Part shown: positions 4,677-17,741 of the stretch, one piece after another
Layout: every line of letters starts with the position of its first letter
Numbering within the stretch: position 1 is the stretch's first letter
Assembly: GCA_013416795.1 (NCBI GenBank)
Contig: RQSC01000029.1
Coordinates: 238,573-275,823 of the forward strand
From: Prasinococcaceae sp. CCMP 1430
Taxonomy: Eukaryota > Prasinodermophyta > Palmophyllophyceae > Prasinococcales > Prasinococcaceae
Length of the DNA: 37,251 nucleotides
Direction: 5' to 3'
The notes under the pieces: generated by a model
The model's database searches: none
The model's input: the letters and a program-made list of their open reading frames with translations, nothing else
Told to the model about the DNA's origin: nothing
Translations under genes and position numbers: made by a program

Positions 4677-5622
4677 TTGCACGCGACGGCGGGCGCCCTG
4701 CGCGGTGGTAGCAGGCAGCCGGGGAATGGCGGCATGGCAGTATAGACGGATAGAGGCACACGCGGCCACGCAGAGAGACGACCAAAGAGAGATGAGGAGA
4801 GACGGGTGTTGGGGGGGAGAGAGAGAGCCGCGTCGCGGCGAAGGGGCTATAGCCGACGGGGGGGCTGGGGGGGGAGGCGCTACAGTACCTAGTGCCAGCG
4901 TCTGCGTGTAAGACACTTTGCACACGTGTGCGCCAATTCGCGGGCGCGCATTGCCGCCCGCCGCGCACAGCGCGGCCAGCCAGGTGCGGCGGGTGGGCGC
5001 TGCAGGCTGCTGGGCCTCCGTTCGCCACTGGCATCGCCCCGCCTTTCGCTCGGCCGTCCCCTCGCCGGAGTGCAGCGCAGCGCGCGGCGCCCGCGTCCTC
5101 GCCGCCCCTCCCTGCGCTTCGAGGCGCTTCGACCGGTGCGCGGATGGCCGCCGCTGCCGACACGCACACGCACACGCCGAAAAGGTGGCGCCCAAACCGC
5201 CCGACCAAAAAAGCGCGCAGCCGCGCCAAAAAAACGGCGTGAAAAGGGGAGGCCGCCCCGGAAAACCCCACCGGAAGGCACGCCGGACAGAGTGCCTTTC
5301 GATTGCACCTGTGGCGTGGGTGGACGGGTGCGCGCGCACCCGCCGGTGCGAACGAACGCGTCCTGACGTATGCATACAAATTTTACTGCAGTTGTGACTG
5401 TGCGCGCATCGCCGGCGGCCGAAATATATCGCCGCGCGCGAAAAGCGCGCGCGCAGCAGTGACGCGCGCGCGCGGCGCGCGAGGCGAGGGGCGCCGCGGT
5501 GCAGCTGGACGGTCGGGCCGACGAACCGCAGCAGCGCCCCCGCCACCACCACCACCATCGCCTGTGCCAGCGCCATCGGCCCCGCGAGCGCGGCCCGGCC
5601 GCCGCCGCGCGGCCTCACGGCG
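4677..5622 (+). promoter_or_regulatory. Intergenic region between H+-ATPase and GHKL-ATPase genes
   Basis: I see no convincing gene; the open frames are CG-rich shadows. Purine-rich repeats lie at about 4770-4830. Near the downstream gene there are two AT-rich islands: TGACGTATGCATACAAATTT at 5364-5383, containing the 10-bp palindrome GTATGCATAC at 5368-5377, and GAAATATATC at 5421-5430, a TATA-like element about 195 nt upstream of the ATG at 5623. These are candidate promoter elements only. Confidence 0.3.
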
Positions 5623-7830
5623 ATGCAGGCAGACGCGTGGGAGCGCGAGGTGGGGGAGGCCGAGGCGCGCCTGAAGGGGCACGCCAGAGAGTACGCCAAG
5701 CTCGCGCGGCGCGCCCTGCCCTCCAAGCGGGACACGCGTCGCGCGGCCGCGGCCAGGGCGACAGAGCGGCTCGACGGGGAGGCCGAGCGCGCGCGGGACG
5801 GGCAGCGTCGGAAGAAGGGCGCCGAGAAGAGTCGAAAGCCGCCAAGCCCGCGGCGGGAGCGGGCGGTGCGGCGCGCGGTGGCGGCCAGCACCGAGCCCGC
5901 GGGAGCAGGCACCGCAGGAAGCGCAGCAGGGAGGGACGGAGCGGATGCGAGGAGGCAGGCGGCGACATTGCCCCCCGATGTGCGCAGCGCAGTCGGCGCG
6001 CAGCCCGCGGCGGACTCGCTGTCGTTGCGCGTGTCCTCGCCCGAGGTGCTGCTCAACCACATGGCGGAGCGCTACTCGTCGTCGTCGCGCATCGTGATGG
6101 AGTTCATCGACAATGCGTTCGACTCCGCCGAGGGGCTGCTAGAGGAGCGCCGCTCGCTGGGCAGCGAGGGCGAGGACGTCTCGGCCGTGCCGCACTACTC
6201 GAGGCCGATCGACATCGACGTGGTCGTCGACCGCGAGCGACGCACCATCCGAGTCACCGACAACTGCGTGGGCATGCCGCGCGATGTGCTGAGACGCGTC
6301 GTGCTCAACGTGGGCGAGAGCCGCAAGCGCGGCTCGTCCTTCCTCAATGGCCAATTTGGCTTCGGCATGCAGGCTTTCCGCGCGTGCTGCGGCAGCCTCG
6401 TGGTGCGCAGCCGCGCCGACCCCGGCGCTCCTGTGCTGGGCATCGCCATCAGCCGCGGCCAGGCCGACGGATTCGAGCTGGAGGAGGTGGTGGGCTCCGC
6501 CGCCGACGCAGCTGTTGGCGCGACGGGCACCGACGTGCTACTCAGCGACTTCGACGAGCAGTGGGTCGACAGCACCTTCGAGGTGGACGCGATGGCCGCC
6601 GAGATCGAGTCGCACTTCGAGCGCCTGCTCGGCCGCGGAAACCTGCGCGTGCGCGTGCGCTGCGCGGCCACGGGCGAGGAGCGCGTGTGCCGGCCGTTCG
6701 ACTACGCCGATCCGGCGCTCGACGCGGCAGCGCACGTCGAGCGTGTCTTCACCGTCGCGACGCCAGGATCCAGCGCCGACGCTGTGCCGCAGACGGTGCG
6801 GCTAAGCCTGGCTGTGGTGCGCACCGAGGTGAACGATCGCCAGCCGCGCTTCTTCGTCAACGGCCGGCGCGTGTCCGCCGTGTGTGCCACGCGCTCCTTC
6901 ACGGGCGTGTCGGCCAAGCGCTGGACAGTGTGGGCGCACCCTCTGTTGGTGGGTTACATTGACGTGGACTCGCCGCCGGGCGCTCCACTGCAGCCAGTCA
7001 TCACTCGCGACGAATTCAAGCGTACGCGCGGCCGCCGCGCGGCCTTCCAGCGCGTCGTTGACGAGTGCGAGGCCGAGCTTGAGGCCGCGCTGGAGGGAAT
7101 CAACAAGGCGCAGAGCGATAAAGACCTCACGGCGCTCGAGGACCTGCTCACGCAGTGCCTTAGCTCGGTGTCCAAGGAGGACAACCGCAGGCGGCGCAAG
7201 AAGCGCACGAGCATGTGGGAGCGCGCTAAGAGGGCGGTCGGCCTGGGCAATGATGACGCCGACGTGCAGGGCATCGAGCCACCAGAGGGTGGCCTTGCGG
7301 CGCTGTGGGCGGGCGTTCTGCCAACCGTGCTCACGGTGGGCGCGCCGGCCGCTGAGGACGACGTTGAAACAGGGGACGACACCAAGGCAGAAGCTAACAC
7401 CGCCGATGTGAAGAACATGCAGGGCGGCGGGGCTGCCAAGAAGAGCAATGAGTTTGCGCCTGAGGTGCGGCTCGTGGCGAGCTTGCCCGGTGAACCCTCG
7501 GGGGAGCAGGCTTCGAGCGACACAGGAGGCCGCAGCCGGCTGGCGGGCAACTGCATCTACGTTGCTGTGTCACACCCTGACTTCCAGGAGCGTCTGCGCA
7601 AGAGTCGCCGCGGGCGTGAGAAAATTGACGAGCGCCTGCTTGGCTACTTGAGCACGCTCATTGCGGCGCACTACCGAGAGCGAGAGCTGCTCAGCGGACG
7701 GCTAGAAGACGATACCAACCCGTTCGCGAATATGGTTGACACATACGTCAACCTGGAGGGCCGCCTACGTACGTGCCTGCCTGCGCTGCTGCGCCAGATT
7801 GAGGAGGCAGAGGCGGAGGTCGATGCGTGA
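5623..7830 (+). CDS. GHKL-family ATPase (Hsp90/MutL/TopoVI-B/MORC-like fold)
   Basis: Intronless 735-residue protein starting at the first in-frame ATG. Residues 1-130 are basic and low-complexity (possible nuclear or disordered tail). The ATP-binding GHKL (Bergerat) fold follows, with all hallmark motifs. N box: EFIDNAFDSAEG, with Mg-binding Asn164 and the general-base Glu160. G1: VTDNCVGM, 211-218. G2: NGQFGFGMQAF, 242-252. A transducer-like region follows with FFVNGRRVS (about 410-418), recalling the FVNGR of MutL proteins, then ITRDEFKRTRGRRAAF. The C-terminal third has an acidic or disordered linker and a conserved-looking segment IYVAVSHPDFQERLRKS with a helical end. GHKL ATPases of this size act as ATP-driven clamps on DNA or on client proteins. 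The G2 wording fits neither canonical MORC nor canonical MutL, so the subfamily and substrate are unknown. Confidence 0.72.
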   Translation: MQADAWEREVGEAEARLKGHAREYAKLARRALPSKRDTRRAAAARATERLDGEAERARDGQRRKKGAEKSRKPPSPRRERAVRRAVAASTEPAGAGTAGSAAGRDGADARRQAATLPPDVRSAVGAQPAADSLSLRVSSPEVLLNHMAERYSSSSRIVMEFIDNAFDSAEGLLEERRSLGSEGEDVSAVPHYSRPIDIDVVVDRERRTIRVTDNCVGMPRDVLRRVVLNVGESRKRGSSFLNGQFGFGMQAFRACCGSLVVRSRADPGAPVLGIAISRGQADGFELEEVVGSAADAAVGATGTDVLLSDFDEQWVDSTFEVDAMAAEIESHFERLLGRGNLRVRVRCAATGEERVCRPFDYADPALDAAAHVERVFTVATPGSSADAVPQTVRLSLAVVRTEVNDRQPRFFVNGRRVSAVCATRSFTGVSAKRWTVWAHPLLVGYIDVDSPPGAPLQPVITRDEFKRTRGRRAAFQRVVDECEAELEAALEGINKAQSDKDLTALEDLLTQCLSSVSKEDNRRRRKKRTSMWERAKRAVGLGNDDADVQGIEPPEGGLAALWAGVLPTVLTVGAPAAEDDVETGDDTKAEANTADVKNMQGGGAAKKSNEFAPEVRLVASLPGEPSGEQASSDTGGRSRLAGNCIYVAVSHPDFQERLRKSRRGREKIDERLLGYLSTLIAAHYRERELLSGRLEDDTNPFANMVDTYVNLEGRLRTCLPALLRQIEEAEAEVDA

Positions 7831-8143: not shown

Positions 8144-8330
8144 GATACGTTCCAGCACCCCCCCCGCTGGCACCCCCCCGCATGCAAAGTGATATAGGGC
8201 GCCGGATTCCAGTGACCTAGTTTCAATGCATCTGGCTTTTTGCGCGGGGCGGCGCGCTTTCTCGCGCCGGCGAATCCCCGCGGCCGGGCCCGGCGCCGGC
8301 AGAGCGCCCGCGCGCGCGGGCGGGGGAAGT

Positions 8331-8420
8331 GCAGCCAGCGGTGGAGGTGCGGGGGTCGGGGGGAAGGGAGTCGAGGTAGGCGACCGCCGCCTTGCCGTCG
8401 CCCACGGTGAGCAGAGCCGC
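8331..8420 (-). repeat. Copy 1 of the inverted-plus-mirror repeat
   Basis: 8382-8420 is the exact reverse complement of 10314-10352 (39/39). The adjoining 8331-8381 is not the reverse complement but the exact mirror image of 10353-10403 (51/51). On the minus strand, 8381 to 8331 reads AYLDSLPPDPRTSTAGC, directly after GDGKAAV, in the same frame as its partner. This reads like ordinary protein and is probably the unaltered form. Confidence 0.9.
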
Positions 8421-9436
8421 GTCACCAACTCGTTCGAGTACTCGTTCGGTACTGACGAAAATGGCCAGCCCACTGACCTGCGCTCGGACCTAGTCATCAC
8501 CGACACCGACACAGGCTACAGACACTGCCTCGACGTCACCTTCACGGATCCGTCTGCCAAGATCAACATGACAGGCGCGAACCCGTCCACGGCGGCAGGC
8601 CTAGCCACCCCCCGCCCTCCCCGGCGGCGCTCGGCTCGCAATCGCGGCCAGGCCTGCCACGGCGAGGGAGGATGGGACGCCACGCAGTATGGCTCGAGCC
8701 CAGCAGGGGCTTTGCCGCGAGGCCCGAGGGCCCGCTCCCCCGAGGGGGCGGGTCGCGTCTCCCACGGCCCCACAGGCTCGTGCCACTGCCCGGTCTGCCG
8801 CGAGTCCAAGCCATCTGCCACGGAGCTCCGGGGCCACTGGAACGCCAAGTGCGAGCCGGTCGGCCTCCCGCCCACAGGCTGGAAGGCCGGCGACCCTGTA
8901 CCCACACGCCTCCTGCCAGACTTGGCCAGGGCCTGGTGCGACCATCCGGTCCGCCGCCTCACCCCCGCCGAGAAGGCGTCCATGGACGCTGCCCACCAGT
9001 GCCACAAGTGCTTCAGGGCCATGGCTGGCTCGATGGGCCGGCACAAAGGCTCCACGCGCTGCGCCTTCTACGCGGCCGCCCATGAGGCCGTCGGCGCCGG
9101 CGCCAGCCCTTCTGCGGGCCTAGTGGCGACCAACACCGATGCGGCGCCTCCCCAACCCCCGCGCAGGGCGTCCAACTGGGACGCTGGCATCCGCTGGCTG
9201 GGCACCCTCGACCCGAGCGACCACCTCCACGCGCCGGGGGGGCGCATGACTCTGGACGACTTCCCCAGCAAGCCCTCCGCGGCCCTCTTCGGGGACTGCG
9301 TGGATCTCACACTGGCCCTCTACAAGGACCACCCCACTGAGGCCACCATGCTCCTTCACCTGCTGCCACGCATGCTGCTGGGCCGCCTGTCGCAGGAGCG
9401 CCTGGACCTCACCCCGAGCTCCGCCCCCTACGGTCG

Positions 9437-9861
9437 CTCATCGAAGCCACCGTCAAGGACCGCTGCAAGCGCTTCCTCGACGACTCTGCCAACTGGGAAC
9501 TGCTCCTCAACGAAGCACACGTCGAGCTCGCCACCGCTGCGGCCGAGGCGAAACTGCTGGCAGCTGCACGCGACCCGTGCGCACCCCACGTCACCAAGAG
9601 TGAGGCCGACCGCGCCGACCGCCTGGTCCACAAGCACCAACCCGGCCGCGCGCTCAAGGTCCTCATCGCCCCGCCACTGGCGGACACCTCCGACCCAGCC
9701 GTCCTGCACAAGCTGCGCGAGCTTCACCCGCAGGCAGAGGATGACTACGAGTCGTACGCGTGGCCGCCAGCTCCACCGCCACCTCCCCCTGACTCCGGTG
9801 AGGGCATCGACTGTTCGGTGGAGGGACTCCTACTCGCCTTCGAACACCTCAATCGACTCTG
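9437..9861 (+). pseudogene. Pre-RT segment of the retroelement in the shifted frame
   Basis: Read from CTC at 9437, this frame gives a hydrophilic helical segment (IEATVKDRCKRFLDDSANWE) and then SEADRADRLVHKHQPGRALK, IAPPLADTSDPAVLHKLREL and HPQAEDDYES, ending at a TGA at 9859. The pattern 'GRALKxL...DxSDPxVxxxLRxLHP' is the region just before the RT fingers in many LINE proteins. The first 115 or so nt are duplicated at about 11609-11725. Confidence 0.6.
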
Positions 9862-10313
9862 ACAAGGTCGTTACCTTCCGCCCCCACTCCGCCTTCCACG
9901 GCAAGGAGTCAACCGTGCTACCTCCTCCTCCACTCTCCACCATCACGCACCCGCCTTCCGACGACGAACTGCGGGCGTTCATCTCGCTACTGGCGGCTGA
10001 GGAGCCCAAGTTGGAGCGGCGGGCGGCGGCAACGAATGGCTCGCAAGGCAGTCAGCAACGCTTCGAGCAGCAGCGCTGCAAGGACGTGGCATCGGCTCTT
10101 CGCTGCTTACACATCGCTCCGAGGGGCCTTCGCGCCTGCATCGCGTCTGTCAACGGGGCGAGTGGACGCGCCGCCAAAGTGGTCGCGCTCGCCAAGTCCC
10201 AGCAGCGCAAGCTGCGCATGCACGTCCATCCTGACAGGCTCACCGCTGCCCGCAAGGAGGCGCTGGGCGCCGACCTCTTCGACAAGATCGCCGATGTCAA
10301 CTGCGTCCTTGAT

Positions 10314-10403
10314 GCGGCTCTGCTCACCGTGGGCGACGGCAAGGCGGCGGTCCGGATGGAGCTGAGGGAAGGGGGGCTGGGGGCGTGGAGGTGGCGACCG
10401 ACG
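10314..10403 (+). repeat. Copy 2 of the inverted-plus-mirror repeat
   Basis: 10314-10352 pairs as a normal inverted repeat with 8382-8420. 10353-10403 equals the base-by-base complement, without reversal, of what a normal inverted copy would carry. It spans exactly 17 codons and reads RMELREGGLGAWRWRPT, in place of the AYLDSLPPDPRTSTAGC read from the other copy. Confidence 0.9.
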
Positions 10404-10557
10404 CGCGGTCCCCGCCAACTTCCGCAGCAGCAGCAGGGCTTCCCGCTCGGCACCAAGGACTTCGTGGCAGGGGCTCTCGAGAAGAAGGACGCGTTGTACT
10501 ATCGCAAGCTCACCGCCTGCAACCAGTTCTCCGCGTGGGGGCACAACAGCGCAGCGC

Positions 10558-10612
10558 TCAAGGTACTCCGCACGTGTGTCCACCCCATCAGCGACTACCT
10601 CCTGCGCGGCCT
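10558..10612 (+). repeat. Direct repeat, copy A (55 bp)
   Basis: Identical to 10648-10702 (TCAAGGTACTCCGCACGTGT onward). The two copies are offset by 90 bp, with 35 bp of GC-rich sequence between them that ends in an in-frame TAG. A tandem duplication therefore split the thumb-like frame. Confidence 0.9.
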
Positions 10613-10643
10613 TCGGCGCGCGCGCGGATCGGGAAAGTTATAG

Positions 10644-11465
10644 GTGTTCAAGGTACTCCGCACGTGTGTCCACCCCATCAGCGACTACCTCCTGCGCGGC
10701 CTCTTCCCAGGCGGCAAGGGCGAACAGGACAGGTACGCTGAGCCAGCACACTTCCTCGTGAAGCGTCACCACGCCCTGCTCCAGGCCACGGTGGACTGCG
10801 CACTCGGACAGGTCCCACCAGACGACACCCCGACCCGCACTGGGTCGCTGGCGAAGATCTTCCCCAAGCACATCGGACTTCCCATCTCCCAGGGTGGGTT
10901 CGGTATGCGCGCCCCTTCCACCGTTCGCCTGCCGGCGTGGGTTGGTGCGAGGACTTCCGTCCTTCCCTTCGCCACACGCCACCCCCTCGCCTGGCAGTAC
11001 TTCACCCGCCCCGACACAGCGGGCGCTGCCCTGTACGAGGCCCTGCAGACCATGCTCAACACCGACGACGAGCCCCTGGTTCCACCGTTTCCCGCGAATG
11101 CCGATCCGAGTCGGCCCAGTTTCCCCACTACTCCCCTTTACAACGCAGCTTACGCCGGCCACGATAAGTGCGTGCAGCTGCTGCTCGAGGCGGGCGCGGA
11201 CACAAACACGGGCGATGTGAGATACGACATGACTCCTTTGAACGGTGCAACCGAGCTGGGTCACATTGAGTGCGTGCGACTGCTGCTGGAGGCGGGCGCC
11301 GACATGAACCAGCCAGACAAAGACAAGTTCACCCCAATTATTACTGCAGCCCGATGGAACCGCGCAGACTGCCTCGAGCTCCTGATCGAGGCAGGCGCCG
11401 AAATTGAGAAGCGGGACCTTGGCGCCGTCGCAGACCGTCTCGACGTCGTCGATGATGGCAGCTAA
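10644..11465 (+). pseudogene. RT thumb-region remnant fused to ankyrin repeats
   Basis: The open frame begins after the TAG at 10643 and has no ATG at its start (its first candidate codon is GTG). The first half continues the LINE-like thumb (LPISQGGFGMRAPSTVRLPA). From about 11125 it becomes three ankyrin-type repeats: TPLYNAAYAGHDKCVQLLLE, TPLNGATELGHIECVRLLLE and TPIITAARWNRADCLELLIE, with the usual AGAD turns. The stop at 11463-11465 lies inside the left inverted repeat of the next element. Either the ankyrin part is a captured host-gene fragment or the element inserted into an ankyrin gene. No start, RT core or complete gene can be defined. Confidence 0.6.
10648..10702 (+). repeat. Direct repeat, copy B (55 bp)
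   Basis: Second copy of 10558-10612. The sequence downstream (LFPGGKGEQDRYAEPAHFLV) continues the retroelement protein naturally, so copy B is the one joined to the original downstream sequence. Confidence 0.9.
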
Positions 11466-11529
11466 GGGTGCGATTACAGTATGGAAAGACGCAAGCGAGA
11501 GGTTGCGTAGCGCGCGTGTGTCTAAGATG
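11462..11529 (+). repeat. Left terminal inverted repeat
   Basis: Pairs with 12107-12174. It contains the stop codon of the ankyrin-encoding frame. Confidence 0.75.
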
Positions 11530-11608
11530 ATGATGACGATGATGGAGAGGACCATGGCGTCGGGGTCCAGCTTGCTGGCAGTAGGCACACCTGCGGCTGC
11601 CTGACCGG

Positions 11609-11725
11609 CTCATCGAAGCCACCGTCAAGGACCGCTGCAAGCGCTTCCTCGACGACTCCGCCAACTGGGAACTGCTCCACAACGAAGCACACGTCGAGCT
11701 CGCCACCGCTGCGACAGAGGCGCAA
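11609..11725 (+). repeat. Second copy of retroelement pre-RT segment
   Basis: Nearly identical to 9435-9551 (CTCATCGAAGCCACCGTCAA onward, differing at a few bases). It encodes LIEATVKDRCKRFLDDSANW again and then diverges. It lies inside the inverted-repeat unit. Confidence 0.85.
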
Positions 11726-11816
11726 CAGTTCGTCGCTGGCAGCGACAGCAACGAACGGGTCATCTCGTCTCGCGGCGCCACCCAAGGATGCGCCTTCGGG
11801 TAGCGCTACGCGAAAA

Positions 11817-12081
11817 CTCTGTGAGCACCACCACATCCAGTTCCACACGCTGGCGTTCGACACCCTGGGCCGGGCGCACAGGTCCTCCAGAGGTGCCATC
11901 GAGCACCTCTTCACCAACAGGGTCACGGCGACGAACCCAAGCCGTTGGCCGACGGGCAAGGCTCTTCGGGTCCTTGCCGACGGCCTGCACAATTCATCGT
12001 CTGCATGCGTGCTCCGCGCGTGCGGCGTGCACACACACGACCACCCAAGGCGCCGCTCTCGCAGCCGCGCTGCGGGTGGAT
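11817..12081 (+). pseudogene. LINE endonuclease-domain-like remnant
   Basis: An open stretch reads CEHHHIQFHTLAFDTLGRAH and AIEHLFTNRVTATNPSRW, ending at a TAG at 12079-12081. The pattern of a hydrophobic strand, then DTLGR, then a short helix resembles the C-terminal restriction-like endonuclease region of LINE proteins. It has no start and is a dead fragment. Confidence 0.4.
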
Positions 12082-12106
12082 AGCTCGCTCTCACACACGA
12101 ACCTAG

Positions 12107-12174
12107 ATCTTACACACGCGCGCTACGCAACCTTGCGCTTGCGTCTCCTCGTACTGTAATCGCACCCTACACTA
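12107..12174 (-). repeat. Right terminal inverted repeat
   Basis: Inverted partner of 11462-11529. The outer end reads ACTGTAATCGCACCC followed by TA. Confidence 0.75.
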
Positions 12175-12539
12175 CTATAACTTGCTTGATAACTTCTTAC
12201 ACAGGAGCGCGGCAAACCTCAATGCTGCAGCTCGACACGGCACTCTCTCTCTCTCCGCAAATCGCCATTGTTTGTTATCACGTTCTCAGTCTCTCTCCCC
12301 TCCCTCTTTACGCTCTCTCCCCTCCCTCCCCCACCCACCCACCCACCCACCCACCCACCCCGAAACCCCTTCTCTCTCCCACTGGTGGCAGCACCCCGTG
12401 AAGGACTGCGTGTACCTCATGTCTGCCGCGCCAGGTAGACATCCCAAGGCGTCTCCCAAGTACAACAAGGTCTGCACGCTCTCCTTGCCGCGCGAGGCAG
12501 GTGGCGTCGTGTCCACACATGCATCAACGCGATGGCTCG
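12175..12539. other. 3' flank of the membrane-protein gene; simple repeats
   Basis: I see no gene. It contains CT-rich runs (about 12240-12330) and an AT-richer patch at 12171-12200. It is the likely 3' UTR and spacer for the minus-strand gene that ends at 12540. Confidence 0.4.
12330..12361. repeat. (CCCA)n tetranucleotide microsatellite
   Basis: About seven tandem CCCA units on the plus strand (TGGG on the minus strand), preceded by CCCT/CTCT tracts. Confidence 0.9.
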
Positions 12540-14363
12540 CTAGCAACCAGGCGGTAGTTGGACATCCGGAAGCGGACACGTCCTCGACGTGCCCAATGAC
12601 GAGCCGCCATCGGACGCAAACCACACGCGATAGTTTATGTTGACCATGATCAAAGTATCGAACAGCAGCCAGGAGAAGACGAGCACGTAGAAGCCCATGC
12701 GCTCGCTGTGCGTGGCGAGGACTTCCTGAAGAGCCTTGGTGAACGGATAGAGCACAGGCCAATAGAACTTCGTCACCTTGATGTACACGTACAGGAGCAC
12801 GATCGCCGACACAAGCGCGACACCTGAGAAGCCAAAGCTCGCCCAGTACTGAGAGTCGGAGAACGTTCGCACGGTGAACACCTGCTGTGGCAGGCAGGGG
12901 TCTGCGTCCGAGATGCGTTGGTCGCGCGAGTGCGCATGCGGGAGCAAACACGTGTCAGCGAGCACCGGCGGACGCAGCAATCTGCGCGCACGCATTCGCT
13001 GCGGGAAGCCTTTTCTAACTTATGTGGCACCATACCCTGCCAGAAGTTGGCGGCGCGCGTGCAGATAAGAGAGCCAGCAAGCACATGTGGTGCGGCCAGC
13101 GTGCTTGTGGATCTGTGCAGACGGCAGCTATGTGGGTGTCGCGAGTGTCGCGCGTCACGTACCCCGCTCGCTGTAGGGATAGTAGTCGCTGTTGGGCCCC
13201 CACCGCAGAATTGGGGATATCACGAGGTACGTCGCATAGCTCGCCCCCACACCGATGAACTTGGCAATGGCGAAACGCTGCTTCGCCCGAAGGTAATCCG
13301 GGTGAGCGTTCGATGTTCCGCGGCCGTCGATGTCGCATTCATAGTCGAGCGGGAGCGCCAGGCTGTCGATGTTGTCTCCTCGAGGGTTGCAGCGGCGGCC
13401 CTTGAAGATGTTGATGCCCCATGTCTTGATCCAGCAGCGGAAGCGAAACCACATGCTCGTGAGATGAATGGGGCTGATGAGAAGGGGCGCCACTGTGGAG
13501 AAGAAGAGGCCGACATACACCCCCATGAGGTCACCAACGCTGTCCTTGCCCTCGCTCTCGTTCGAGCTATTGAAGGCCGCGTACAAAGCAAGCGCGGTGT
13601 AGACGAAGAATCCGGAGAGGATGAACGTCATGTCTGAGTGGAAGATCGCCTGGGTGGGCTTTGAAGTGATGTGCTGCACCACCTTACGGTAAATGGTCTC
13701 AGGGATGAACAGGATGAATGAGAGCGCCGTACGGACGCCGTCTGACACCTGCGTGAACCCGTAACTGTACGCGTAGAGGAAGATGATGAAGAGGTGCATG
13801 ATGAAGAGGATGAGGAAGTACAGCTGCGACCACGCAGATGCCAGCCCAGCGGGGCGCGCAGTCGCCGACATCCACGAGCGGAGCGCCGAGAGAGACAGAC
13901 ATTCATCATCAGTGACGAACACACGCATGATCACAAGTGCAGGCGACCTCGCGACAACGATGGAGCCCCACATCACACCAAGAGCGCAAACACCAGCCGC
14001 GAACGCTTGCATTGGTGCAGCACCCTTCCCATCCGCGCACACACCTTCATGCGCTCCCACTTGCTTTCGGTCGTGTTGAACTTCCCTCGAAATTGCGTCT
14101 TCTGCCTCTTGAACTCTGGAGCACGCAAGGCGGTGCGTCCGCGACGGTAAGCCTTGTCGCCGCCGTCCGTCGCTTCGAGCGCTTCCTGCGCATCCGCGAC
14201 TATGTTGGCAGGTGTGGTTGCTGCCTCGGGCGCTTCAGGGGCGCTTGGCACCCAGCCCGTGTGCGGCTTGGGGCCCTTCGAGCGATGGCCACGCGAGCCC
14301 GCCCCGAGCCCGTCCGAAGAAGCGGCACTGTGCGCGTCGATGAGGCNTCGGGGCGCATGCCAT
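12540..14363 (-). CDS. Unrecognised multi-pass membrane protein (three exons)
   Basis: I do not recognise the family. The proposed CDS is complement(join(12540..12901, 13163..13823, 14045..14363)), about 446 residues if the ambiguous base at 14347 is dropped. Exon 1 encodes a soluble, basic, Ala/Pro-rich tail (KGPKPHTGWVPS...GKFNTTESKWERMK). Exons 2 and 3 encode about six or seven hydrophobic segments, for example LYFLILFIMHLFIIFLYAYS, MTFILSGFFVYTALALYAAF, FAIAKFIGVGASYATYLVIS and MGFYVLVFSWLLFDTLIMVN. Intron 13162-12902 (GTACGT...GACGCAG, phase 1) joins YYPYSER to DPCLPQQVFTV. Intron 14044-13824 (GTGTGT...GGTCGCAG, phase 0) joins ERMK directly to the first helix. Loops carry Cys pairs (RCWIKTW, RRCNP, YECDIDG, DPCLP) that may form lumenal or extracellular disulfides. 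The start depends on the N at 14347, so the N-terminus is the least certain part. Confidence 0.6.
14347..14347. other. Ambiguous base (n), probably a spurious insertion
   Basis: With the N counted, the first-exon frame of the minus-strand membrane protein has no ATG. With it removed, ATG at 14363-14361 falls in frame with the rest of the exon (MACAPSLIDAHSAAS). The N is thus more likely an extra base than an unknown base. Confidence 0.5.
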
Positions 14364-14950: not shown

Positions 14951-17266
14951 TCACGTCAAGTCCACCACAGGCACCGGCCCAGTGGCGGCTGCACGATCGC
15001 TGGGCGCGCTCGTCCATCGCTGCTCCTCAAGCGTCGGCCCAGGCTTGGGACCGGGCTGGTCAGGCAGAGTATCCCTGGTAGACTTGCGCCTGGACAAGTG
15101 CAGATCAACGTCCGGCCGCTGCGCGGGCACTCCATTCGCCGGCTCGTCATCCGCTCCAGTGCACACGTCGCTGCCGTTGCGCCCCTTGACATCGGGCCAC
15201 TGGTAGAGGGGCCCGTAGTCGTACAAAATCTCTTCACCAGGCTCGATGTCGCGCATCGCAAAGAAGCAGATCCGATAGCAGAATCGCGACTGCGGCGGGA
15301 CACGAGGGTCTTCGGGCGTCAGAGCGCACTGCCTGAGAAGGTTGGCGCCGTCAACAGAGTGATTGATCCAGCGCGCGACCGAGCCGCAGTTGAAGCCATC
15401 CATGCACAACTCGTTCGCGTCGGCGAAGCCGTTGTCGTCCTCGTTGAGCTCGTCTTTGATGTAGTGGTCGAGGTTCCACGTGTACGACCGGCGCATGCTT
15501 GGCGCCCCATTAGCTGCGATTGAGTTCCCGAGCTCTTCCTTGCCATGTTCGTCCTCGTACTGTCTGCTGGTGTACAAGTACCCCGCGTACTCGCACACGA
15601 AGTCGCCCACATACAAGAACGTGCCCGCGCGCACGCCCCAGCCGCGACCGTTGGACGTCCGGAACACCTCCAGCTTGGAATGAATGCCGTTTTCCACGAC
15701 CTTGCGCATGTCACCGATCTCGATGATACCATCGCAGCCTTCGACAAGGCAGTCGTCATCGTTGTAGACAGCCACCTCCGCAGTCTTGGGCAGCTCCTTC
15801 GGCACGCGAGCGATCGCCTCGAGAGCCTCGTCCGAGGCGTTTTCGATCGTTGGTGACTTCAGGTAGCAGAAGCCGGACGGCGCAAGGTCTGCGAATCCCT
15901 TGCCGTCCGATGTTTCGTTGTACACAGGGATCCTGACTTTCTCTGCTCCGCCACTGACGTCAGCGCAGACCAGATACCTCGCGAGCATCTCTTGGCGCGT
16001 GGCCGCCCTCTTACGCTTGGCTCCCATCTTCGGGACTGGTACGGTCGCCCCCGCTGTAGCCCTCCTCTTGCGCCCGCCAATTCTTGCCAGCGCCTTGCGT
16101 CTCGACTGGACGCTGATGGACTTCTGCTTGGCATGTTCTTTGATTGGGGTGAGGACGAACTTCGCGCGCGTACGTGCGCATTTGTGCGCATGCGTGTCAG
16201 CGTTCGTGTGCACACGCGTGCATGTGTGCGCGTGCGCGCGCGCGCGAGTGTGTGTGTGCGCGCGCCTCCGTACCTTGAACACGTTGGGTCCGTCAACCCC
16301 CGGGCCGTAGCGCACGCTTGTACACTTGTACAAGCCATCATAAAAGTACTCCCTGACGTCCTTCCCGTTTTTTTTGACGATGCGGCCGCGCAGCACGCGC
16401 ACAGGCGTCCCGCACTTGTTGCTGAGGACGAGCGCAGCGTTGCCTCTCGTGTTCTCCTGGTCTTTGGTTTGTTTGCCCTTCTCCATCCCTCCCGCCCCTG
16501 TGTACTGTATCGTGCCGTCGTCGTTGTCGTCGCGGTCGTCTTCATAAGCACCGCTGAGACAAATCGCGTACGCCGGAACGCCGGTAGTGAACATGATTCC
16601 AGACACGATAGCGGTGTGCAGGCCAAGGATGGCCGCCTCTCCACGGCCGTTCAAGCGAACGCCCACAGGCACGTCGCTGATATGGCCGTGTGCGTTTGCT
16701 GGCGTCCACTGCTTCCGAAGCTCTTTGAATGCGACCATGTCGGGCTTGGCCTGTTTCACAGCCTCGAGCTCTGCCAGGCGCTTGCGATAGAGGGCAAGGC
16801 CCTGCGCAGCCCTGCCTGTCGGCTCTGGATACGCGTGATTCAGGCCCCCTCCGGTCCCGCTTGCGCCCGCCGCCACACCGTTTGGGCCAGCCGTGGCGCC
16901 GCTCGGCTCAGCTGCGCCCCCGCTCGCGCCGGCGTCAGCATCCCTCGGCGTGGTTGCGCCCCCGCTCGCGCCGGCCTTAGCATCCCTCGGCTCGTCTCCT
17001 CGCTCGCTCGCCTCTGAGCAGCTCGCAGGGGAAAGGGCGGCGGCCGCCATGCCCGCATCGCCGAGCGGTGAGCGCGCCGCGTCCCCTCCTCCTCCTCCTC
17101 CTCCGCCGCCGCCGCCCTCGCCGCCGCCCTCGCCTCCGCCTCCGCCTCCGCCTCCGCTGCCGCCCTCACCGCCGGCGCCCCCGCCTGTCCCGCCCCCCGC
17201 CGGCGGCGGCGCCTCCGTCCCCTCGTCCATGGAAGCCACGCCCGCGACCGTGCTTCCCTTCCCCAT
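14951..17266 (-). CDS. SRA-SET histone methyltransferase (SUVH-type, predicted H3K9)
   Basis: SRA-SET proteins bind methylated cytosine and methylate histone H3, usually Lys9, linking DNA methylation to silencing in plants and algae. CDS is complement(join(14951..16159, 16274..17266)), 733 residues from ATG 17266 (ATG 17230 is an alternative). Residues 1-150 are Gly/Ala-rich. The SRA/YDG domain spans about 195-345 (HGHISDVPVGVRLNGRGEAA, SGAYEDDRDDNDDGTIQYTG, KCTSVRYGPGVDGPNVFKF). A basic linker follows (GGRKRRATAGA). The SET domain spans about 492-650: NGRGWGVRAG, FVCEYAG, the substrate/cofactor motif RWINHS and EEILYDYG. The pre-SET region is reduced to two close cysteines (CLVEGC) rather than the nine-Cys zinc cluster, and no post-SET CxCx4C follows the SET domain. 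Activity and lysine specificity are therefore inferences. The first 1 kb upstream holds a telobox. Confidence 0.88.
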   Translation of the reverse strand: MGKGSTVAGVASMDEGTEAPPPAGGGTGGGAGGEGGSGGGGGGGGEGGGEGGGGGGGGGGGDAARSPLGDAGMAAAALSPASCSEASERGDEPRDAKAGASGGATTPRDADAGASGGAAEPSGATAGPNGVAAGASGTGGGLNHAYPEPTGRAAQGLALYRKRLAELEAVKQAKPDMVAFKELRKQWTPANAHGHISDVPVGVRLNGRGEAAILGLHTAIVSGIMFTTGVPAYAICLSGAYEDDRDDNDDGTIQYTGAGGMEKGKQTKDQENTRGNAALVLSNKCGTPVRVLRGRIVKKNGKDVREYFYDGLYKCTSVRYGPGVDGPNVFKVRRRAHTHTRARAHAHTCTRVHTNADTHAHKCARTRAKFVLTPIKEHAKQKSISVQSRRKALARIGGRKRRATAGATVPVPKMGAKRKRAATRQEMLARYLVCADVSGGAEKVRIPVYNETSDGKGFADLAPSGFCYLKSPTIENASDEALEAIARVPKELPKTAEVAVYNDDDCLVEGCDGIIEIGDMRKVVENGIHSKLEVFRTSNGRGWGVRAGTFLYVGDFVCEYAGYLYTSRQYEDEHGKEELGNSIAANGAPSMRRSYTWNLDHYIKDELNEDDNGFADANELCMDGFNCGSVARWINHSVDGANLLRQCALTPEDPRVPPQSRFCYRICFFAMRDIEPGEEILYDYGPLYQWPDVKGRNGSDVCTGADDEPANGVPAQRPDVDLHLSRRKSTRDTLPDQPGPKPGPTLEEQRWTSAPSDRAAATGPVPVVDLT
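16160..16273 (-). other. Frame-neutral 114-nt intron hidden inside the SRA-SET reading frame
   Basis: Minus-strand donor AAG|GTACGG at 16273, acceptor GCGCGAAG ending at 16160. The intron is an AC/GT-rich tract, has no in-frame stop and is a multiple of three. Unspliced it would add 38 residues of His/Arg/Thr repeats (RAHTHTRARAHAHT) in the middle of a conserved SRA strand. Splicing restores VFKFVLTPIKEH. Confidence 0.8.
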
Positions 17267-17741
17267 CCACCCCTCGCGCGCGGCGCTCGCGCTGTGACGC
17301 TCGCGCTGTGGCGCCCACCCCACACAGCAACACCCCACGACCGAGCCGCCCCGTCCGCGAAGGACTCCGAGGGTCAACGCCAGAGTCGAGTGATATCATC
17401 TCGCAAGACAGGATTAGGGTTTTAGATATTTAGGTATGATACGCGAACCCTGATTATGCTGCAGCCTCCCAACGGCATGTGTGTGTGTGCGGAGGCGACG
17501 CGGCACGCAGTGGGCTGCGAGGCTCGGCTCGGCCCGCTGGCGCGACAGCAGCACGTGAGGCGACGGCGCATGCAGGGCGCGGCAGCGACGCATGTGCGCG
17601 CCAGCAAAGGGCGGCGGCGGGTGTGGGCACGCCACACGCGCGGCGCGGTGCGAATCTCTGCGCATGCTTTGCTCTCGCGCCGCGGGGGCGTGATCTGAAT
17701 CGCGCTAGACTCTGTCCCGCACTGAAGACGTTAAGACTCAA
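17267..17741 (-). promoter_or_regulatory. Promoter region of the SRA-SET gene
   Basis: Non-coding gap between the methyltransferase start and the end of the RCC1/SPP gene. It contains an AT-rich island at about 17395-17462, unusual in this GC-rich DNA, with a telobox. I see nothing gene-like in it. Confidence 0.4.
17414..17422 (-). promoter_or_regulatory. Telobox (AAACCCTAA on the minus strand)
   Basis: TTAGGGTTT on the plus strand, about 148 nt upstream of the SRA-SET ATG and inside the AT-rich island. In plants this motif marks promoters bound by telobox factors. It is a single copy, so chance remains possible. Confidence 0.35.

Follow-up and report, generated by a model that had tools for sequence, protein, structure and literature searches.

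The closest described case is the 'swinger' DNA of Seligmann, in which, under the rule A<->T + C<->G, sharp switches are claimed inside otherwise regular sequence (PMC4942731; its refs 96, 97, and 99). According to the same paper, this is the sole swinger rule observed in DNA (PMC4942731). The transformation and the sharp switches are the same at the locus analysed here, but the swinger claims concern mainly mitochondrial or ribosomal records and are read as a mode of the polymerase. Micro-inversions are likewise short, in place and length-preserving; however, they yield the reverse complement in place, whereas the block described below is complemented only. To our knowledge, micro-inversions are made by known biology and in-place complements are not: all known polymerases copy antiparallel strands, and we know of no polymerase or repair pathway that makes an in-place complement. 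Errors of gap filling or contig joining in assemblies resemble the present case in several respects, namely the location of blocks in repeats, the proximity of runs of N and single-N joins, the restriction to one copy, the repeated sizes and the exact edges. No paper describing an assembly fault that complements without reversing was found in the open-access literature.

The window, i.e., the whole stretch of DNA analysed (37,251 nt), is C76:238573-275823 of a 24.5-Mb assembly in 145 contigs, where C-numbers denote contigs and L-numbers the loci compared. The sequence around the block is part of a dispersed repeat, of which the genome has numerous partial copies. Since its 805-amino acid open reading frame (ORF), which carries the block, matched no Pfam family, the element is named here only as a dispersed repeat. 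The locus itself is a mosaic of inverted fragments. The following parts are needed first (window positions):

8331 to 8423, minus strand: inverted, unaltered repeat fragment of 93 nt, 97.8% identical to the C71 and C38 copies
10037 to 10352, plus strand: left flank, normal repeat sequence, 96.5% direct identity to the C71 copy (L049), the match ending exactly at 10352
10353 to 10435, plus strand: in-place complement block of 83 nt (A<->T, C<->G, unreversed) relative to paralogous repeat copies
10436 to 10612, plus strand: right flank, normal repeat sequence, 98.9% identical to the C38 copy, on the diagonal of the left flank

The original prediction had described an inverted repeat of 39 nt, in which 10314-10352 is the reverse complement of 8382-8420, continued by a 51-nt mirror, in which 10353-10403 is the simple reverse of 8331-8381 and thus the in-place complement of the expected inverted copy; both readings hold at every base (39/39 and 51/51). 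This mirror pair is by far the longest of the window, the next ones being of low complexity and at most 33 nt, and chance is excluded as its cause. That one copy has been complemented in place is borne out by other contigs, as 10353-10435 is the complement, at 83 of 83 positions, of C71:258885-258967, C38:47866-47948 and C59:266226-266308, and at 79 of 83 positions of C75 and of both C54 copies. The same comparison corrects the size of the altered stretch, which is 83 nt and not 51; the shorter limit had been perceived because the 8331-8423 fragment stops at 8331. This fragment is another, inverted copy of the repeat and not the source partner of the block, and the length of exactly 17 codons is a coincidence of the cut at 8331, the full block not being a multiple of 3.

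Both flanks of the block are collinear and lie on the same diagonal in the C71, C59, and C38 copies, with no base gained or lost. Across the left edge (10352/10353) the window copy reads ...GGCGGCGGTC and then CGGATGGAGCTGAGG, while the remaining full copies of the junction, which it had been proposed to check in the genome, continue with GCCTACCTCG and none with CGGATGGAGC. When the untransformed block was searched genome-wide, nothing else matched (a gap at query positions 134 to 216). The C71 and C38 copies are 100% identical over 1,530 nt, and the block of the window is in neither.

The kind of transformation was determined by applying all 24 letter permutations in both directions (48 combinations) to every equal-length mismatched segment between collinear flanks (37 candidates). 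In comparisons of distinct places, A<->T + C<->G in the same direction was the sole combination scoring above 60%. Among the 37 candidate segments, no true micro-inversion (in-place reverse complement) was found except for trivial self-matches of fold-backs. A known mutational process would be expected to produce the opposite pattern.

All-against-all comparison under complementing revealed seven in-place complement blocks on five contigs, with lengths of 32, 55, 55, 55, 83, 87, and 110 nt. The comparison covered about 178 kb of non-redundant sequence, of which about 43 kb was testable, i.e., had a paralogue; only repeats can be tested by paralogue comparison. Besides the block of the window, these are:

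C120:62847-62956 (L006 1315-1424): block of 110 nt in the same repeat as the window block, 110/110 complement to three other copies
C71:256598-256684 (L049 1599-1685): in-place complement block of 87 nt
Window 9747 to 9845, plus strand: normal counterpart of this 87-nt block, by comparison with C71
C59:265209-265263, 265520-265574, and 265764-265818 (L052): three in-place complement blocks of 55 nt each
C13:498-529 (L022): in-place complement block of 32 nt

Each of the seven is length-preserving to the base and is carried by a single copy, at least two other copies agreeing on the normal sequence. No block is common to any two copies, even among near-identical ones, some of which are 100% identical over 1.5 kb. 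When 1,946 nt of the repeat was complemented and searched against the whole genome, only the two blocks already known there were recovered, which also served as a positive control, and a search with the complement of another 1,007 nt, the commonest part of the repeat, found none, this search being blind to the known 32-nt block. The normal dinucleotide at the left edge (in contig orientation) is CG in five of the seven blocks and at the right edge in none of the seven, an observation that is post hoc, comes from a small sample and is not relied on.

Besides the block, the window contains parts that look like traces of joining:

8226 to 8329, plus strand: unrelated piece joined at about 8330/8331, 100% identical to C88:43969-44072 and then N, and 100% identical to C59:266733-266787 and then N
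10558 to 10612, plus strand: exact 55-nt direct duplication, copy 1
10613 to 10647, plus strand: 35-nt spacer between the 55-nt copies, unmatched under four transforms
10648 to 10702, plus strand: 55-nt duplication, copy 2, a sequence present once in paralogues

The matches of the 8226-8329 piece at C88 and C59 end exactly at the runs of N. In the alignment with L050, 10436-10612 corresponds to 5177-5353 and 10656-12359 to 5307-7010, so that the two stretches overlap in L050, and the spacer had no match within the compared loci as a copy, complement, mirror or reverse complement. Similar arrangements occur on C75 (L050 4250-4390), where an exact direct duplication of 55 nt surrounds 31 unmatched nt, and on C120 (L006 1835-1978), where one of 56 nt surrounds 32 unmatched nt. 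These duplications of 55-56 nt with spacers of 31-35 nt resemble contig overlaps that were left unmerged and carry junk tails. The figure of 55 nt is common to the duplications and to the three blocks of 55 nt, and is doubled in the block of 110 nt; the blocks of 32, 83, and 87 nt are off this series. The block-bearing repeats have runs of N and single-N joins within them or close by, although such runs may represent withheld sequence rather than gaps. Single N bases were seen at window position 14347, at C79:59165 and at L050 2206. At C79:59165 the single N links two oppositely oriented copies of one repeat in a fold-back, which suggests a scaffold join. Two opposed copies of the dispersed repeat also form a large palindrome with near-identical arms at C54:101600-106800, possibly a further misjoin.

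The block at 10353-10435 is, as judged from its sequence, very probably an artefact of sequence construction and not a real genomic feature. We infer as the responsible software step one of assembly, gap closing, merging or finishing that would join pieces within dispersed or tandem repeats. Segments of 32-110 nt coming from the opposite strand would be joined complemented but unreversed (equivalently, reversed but uncomplemented), and the outcome would be a length-preserving complement in place. A processing error in which complement replaced reverse complement had been named beforehand as the likeliest cause, and the recurrence of the same fault at six other places of the assembly speaks in its favor. 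The blocks of 55, 55, 55, and 110 nt are most naturally accounted for by joining at fixed overlaps of 55 nt, but one fixed overlap does not explain everything since lengths of 32, 83, and 87 nt fall outside this figure.

A special form of artefact would be a fault in the decoding of colour-space (SOLiD) data. In two-base encoding, a sequence and its in-place complement share the same colours. The use of a complemented anchor base for a gap filled from the opposite strand would therefore complement the whole segment exactly and in place, and the colours would change once at each edge. According to one account of SOLiD translation, a single misread colour leads to a chain of errors (PMC4569514). 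Random colour errors, however, would add blocks of the A<->C/G<->T and A<->G/C<->T exchanges, and none of the seven blocks is of these kinds; as only one of the three expected exchange types is present, the random model is rejected and the anchor-strand version alone survives. There being no sign that SOLiD data were used, this version is considered improbable.

Outside artefacts of construction, the repeats of the genome might truly carry numerous short stretches replaced, at exactly the same length, by their in-place complement, through a real mutational process akin to parallel-stranded copying ('swinger' replication) or to unreversed strand exchange. The blocks are exact, sharp-edged and recurrent, and the identical transformation with sharp switches has been claimed for GenBank DNA (PMC4942731, its refs 96, 97, and 99). 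Tested for a homologue that appears after A<->T, C<->G exchange with the direction kept, the block of the window has one at 83 of 83 positions. Against such a process stand the lack of any known polymerase or repair pathway for it, the exactness of each event to the base, the recurrence of lengths at 55 and 110, the absence of blocks from about 23 kb of dynein genes and, as an argument against inheritance, the fact that no block is shared between copies, near-identical ones included. In contrast to the swinger claims, each block here is restricted to one copy, the blocks are concentrated in nuclear repeats and their lengths recur at 55 and 110 nt; these features point to software, and a real process is held to be most improbable. 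Were the block present in the real molecule, it would contradict antiparallel copying and constitute a major discovery; if it is an artefact, it offers a concrete and testable explanation for published claims of 'swinger DNA' of the A<->T + C<->G kind.

In a mosaic of inverted fragments, a small inversion of the ordinary type or template switching between inverted copies of the repeat might be expected, but either would give the reverse complement whereas the block is the plain complement at 83 of 83 positions, so that the sequence rules out both, as the original prediction had argued, and leaves them next to no probability. Mirror symmetry arising by chance or from low complexity, as in purine-rich mirror repeats of the H-DNA type, would agree with the purine-rich block and with the commonness of low-complexity mirror repeats (e.g., 12329-12361), but is ruled out by the 83-nt match to paralogues and by the position of the block inside otherwise collinear flanks, its probability being negligible.

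The reading as an artefact of construction implies a systematic assembly fault that breaks reading frames, which can be seen from the three 55-nt blocks of C59. All three occur within a span of 610 nt, inside an ankyrin-repeat reading frame or immediately beyond its end, and a long run of N lies about 1-1.6 kb away. Two of the three add stop codons, and each of these two erases one ankyrin repeat. At all three positions, the copies of the ankyrin frame on C96 and C69 have the normal sequence. Such a fault would escape ordinary quality checks because length and GC content are unchanged.

In coding sequence, a codon-usage scan gave no convincing block, either in about 23 kb of open dynein frame (eight loci, from one gene family only) or in the six Pfam-bearing ORFs of the window. 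The maximum window score was 7.0 and fell in the N-terminal part of an ORF; the C59 blocks, used as controls, score 12.8-19.7. Planted controls of 55 to 110 nt exceeded the cut-off in 62-93% of trials, and a stop codon was created in 57-79%. The blocks thus look restricted to repeats, or strongly enriched in them, and repeats are where assemblers break and joins get made. This confinement is supportive but not decisive since the same bias would arise if real events in genes were removed by selection. Dynein heavy-chain genes are numerous in the genome, which marks it as eukaryotic. One ORF of the window (14954-17377, minus strand) combines a SAD_SRA and a SET domain in a single protein, as is known from plant histone methyltransferases of the SUVH type.
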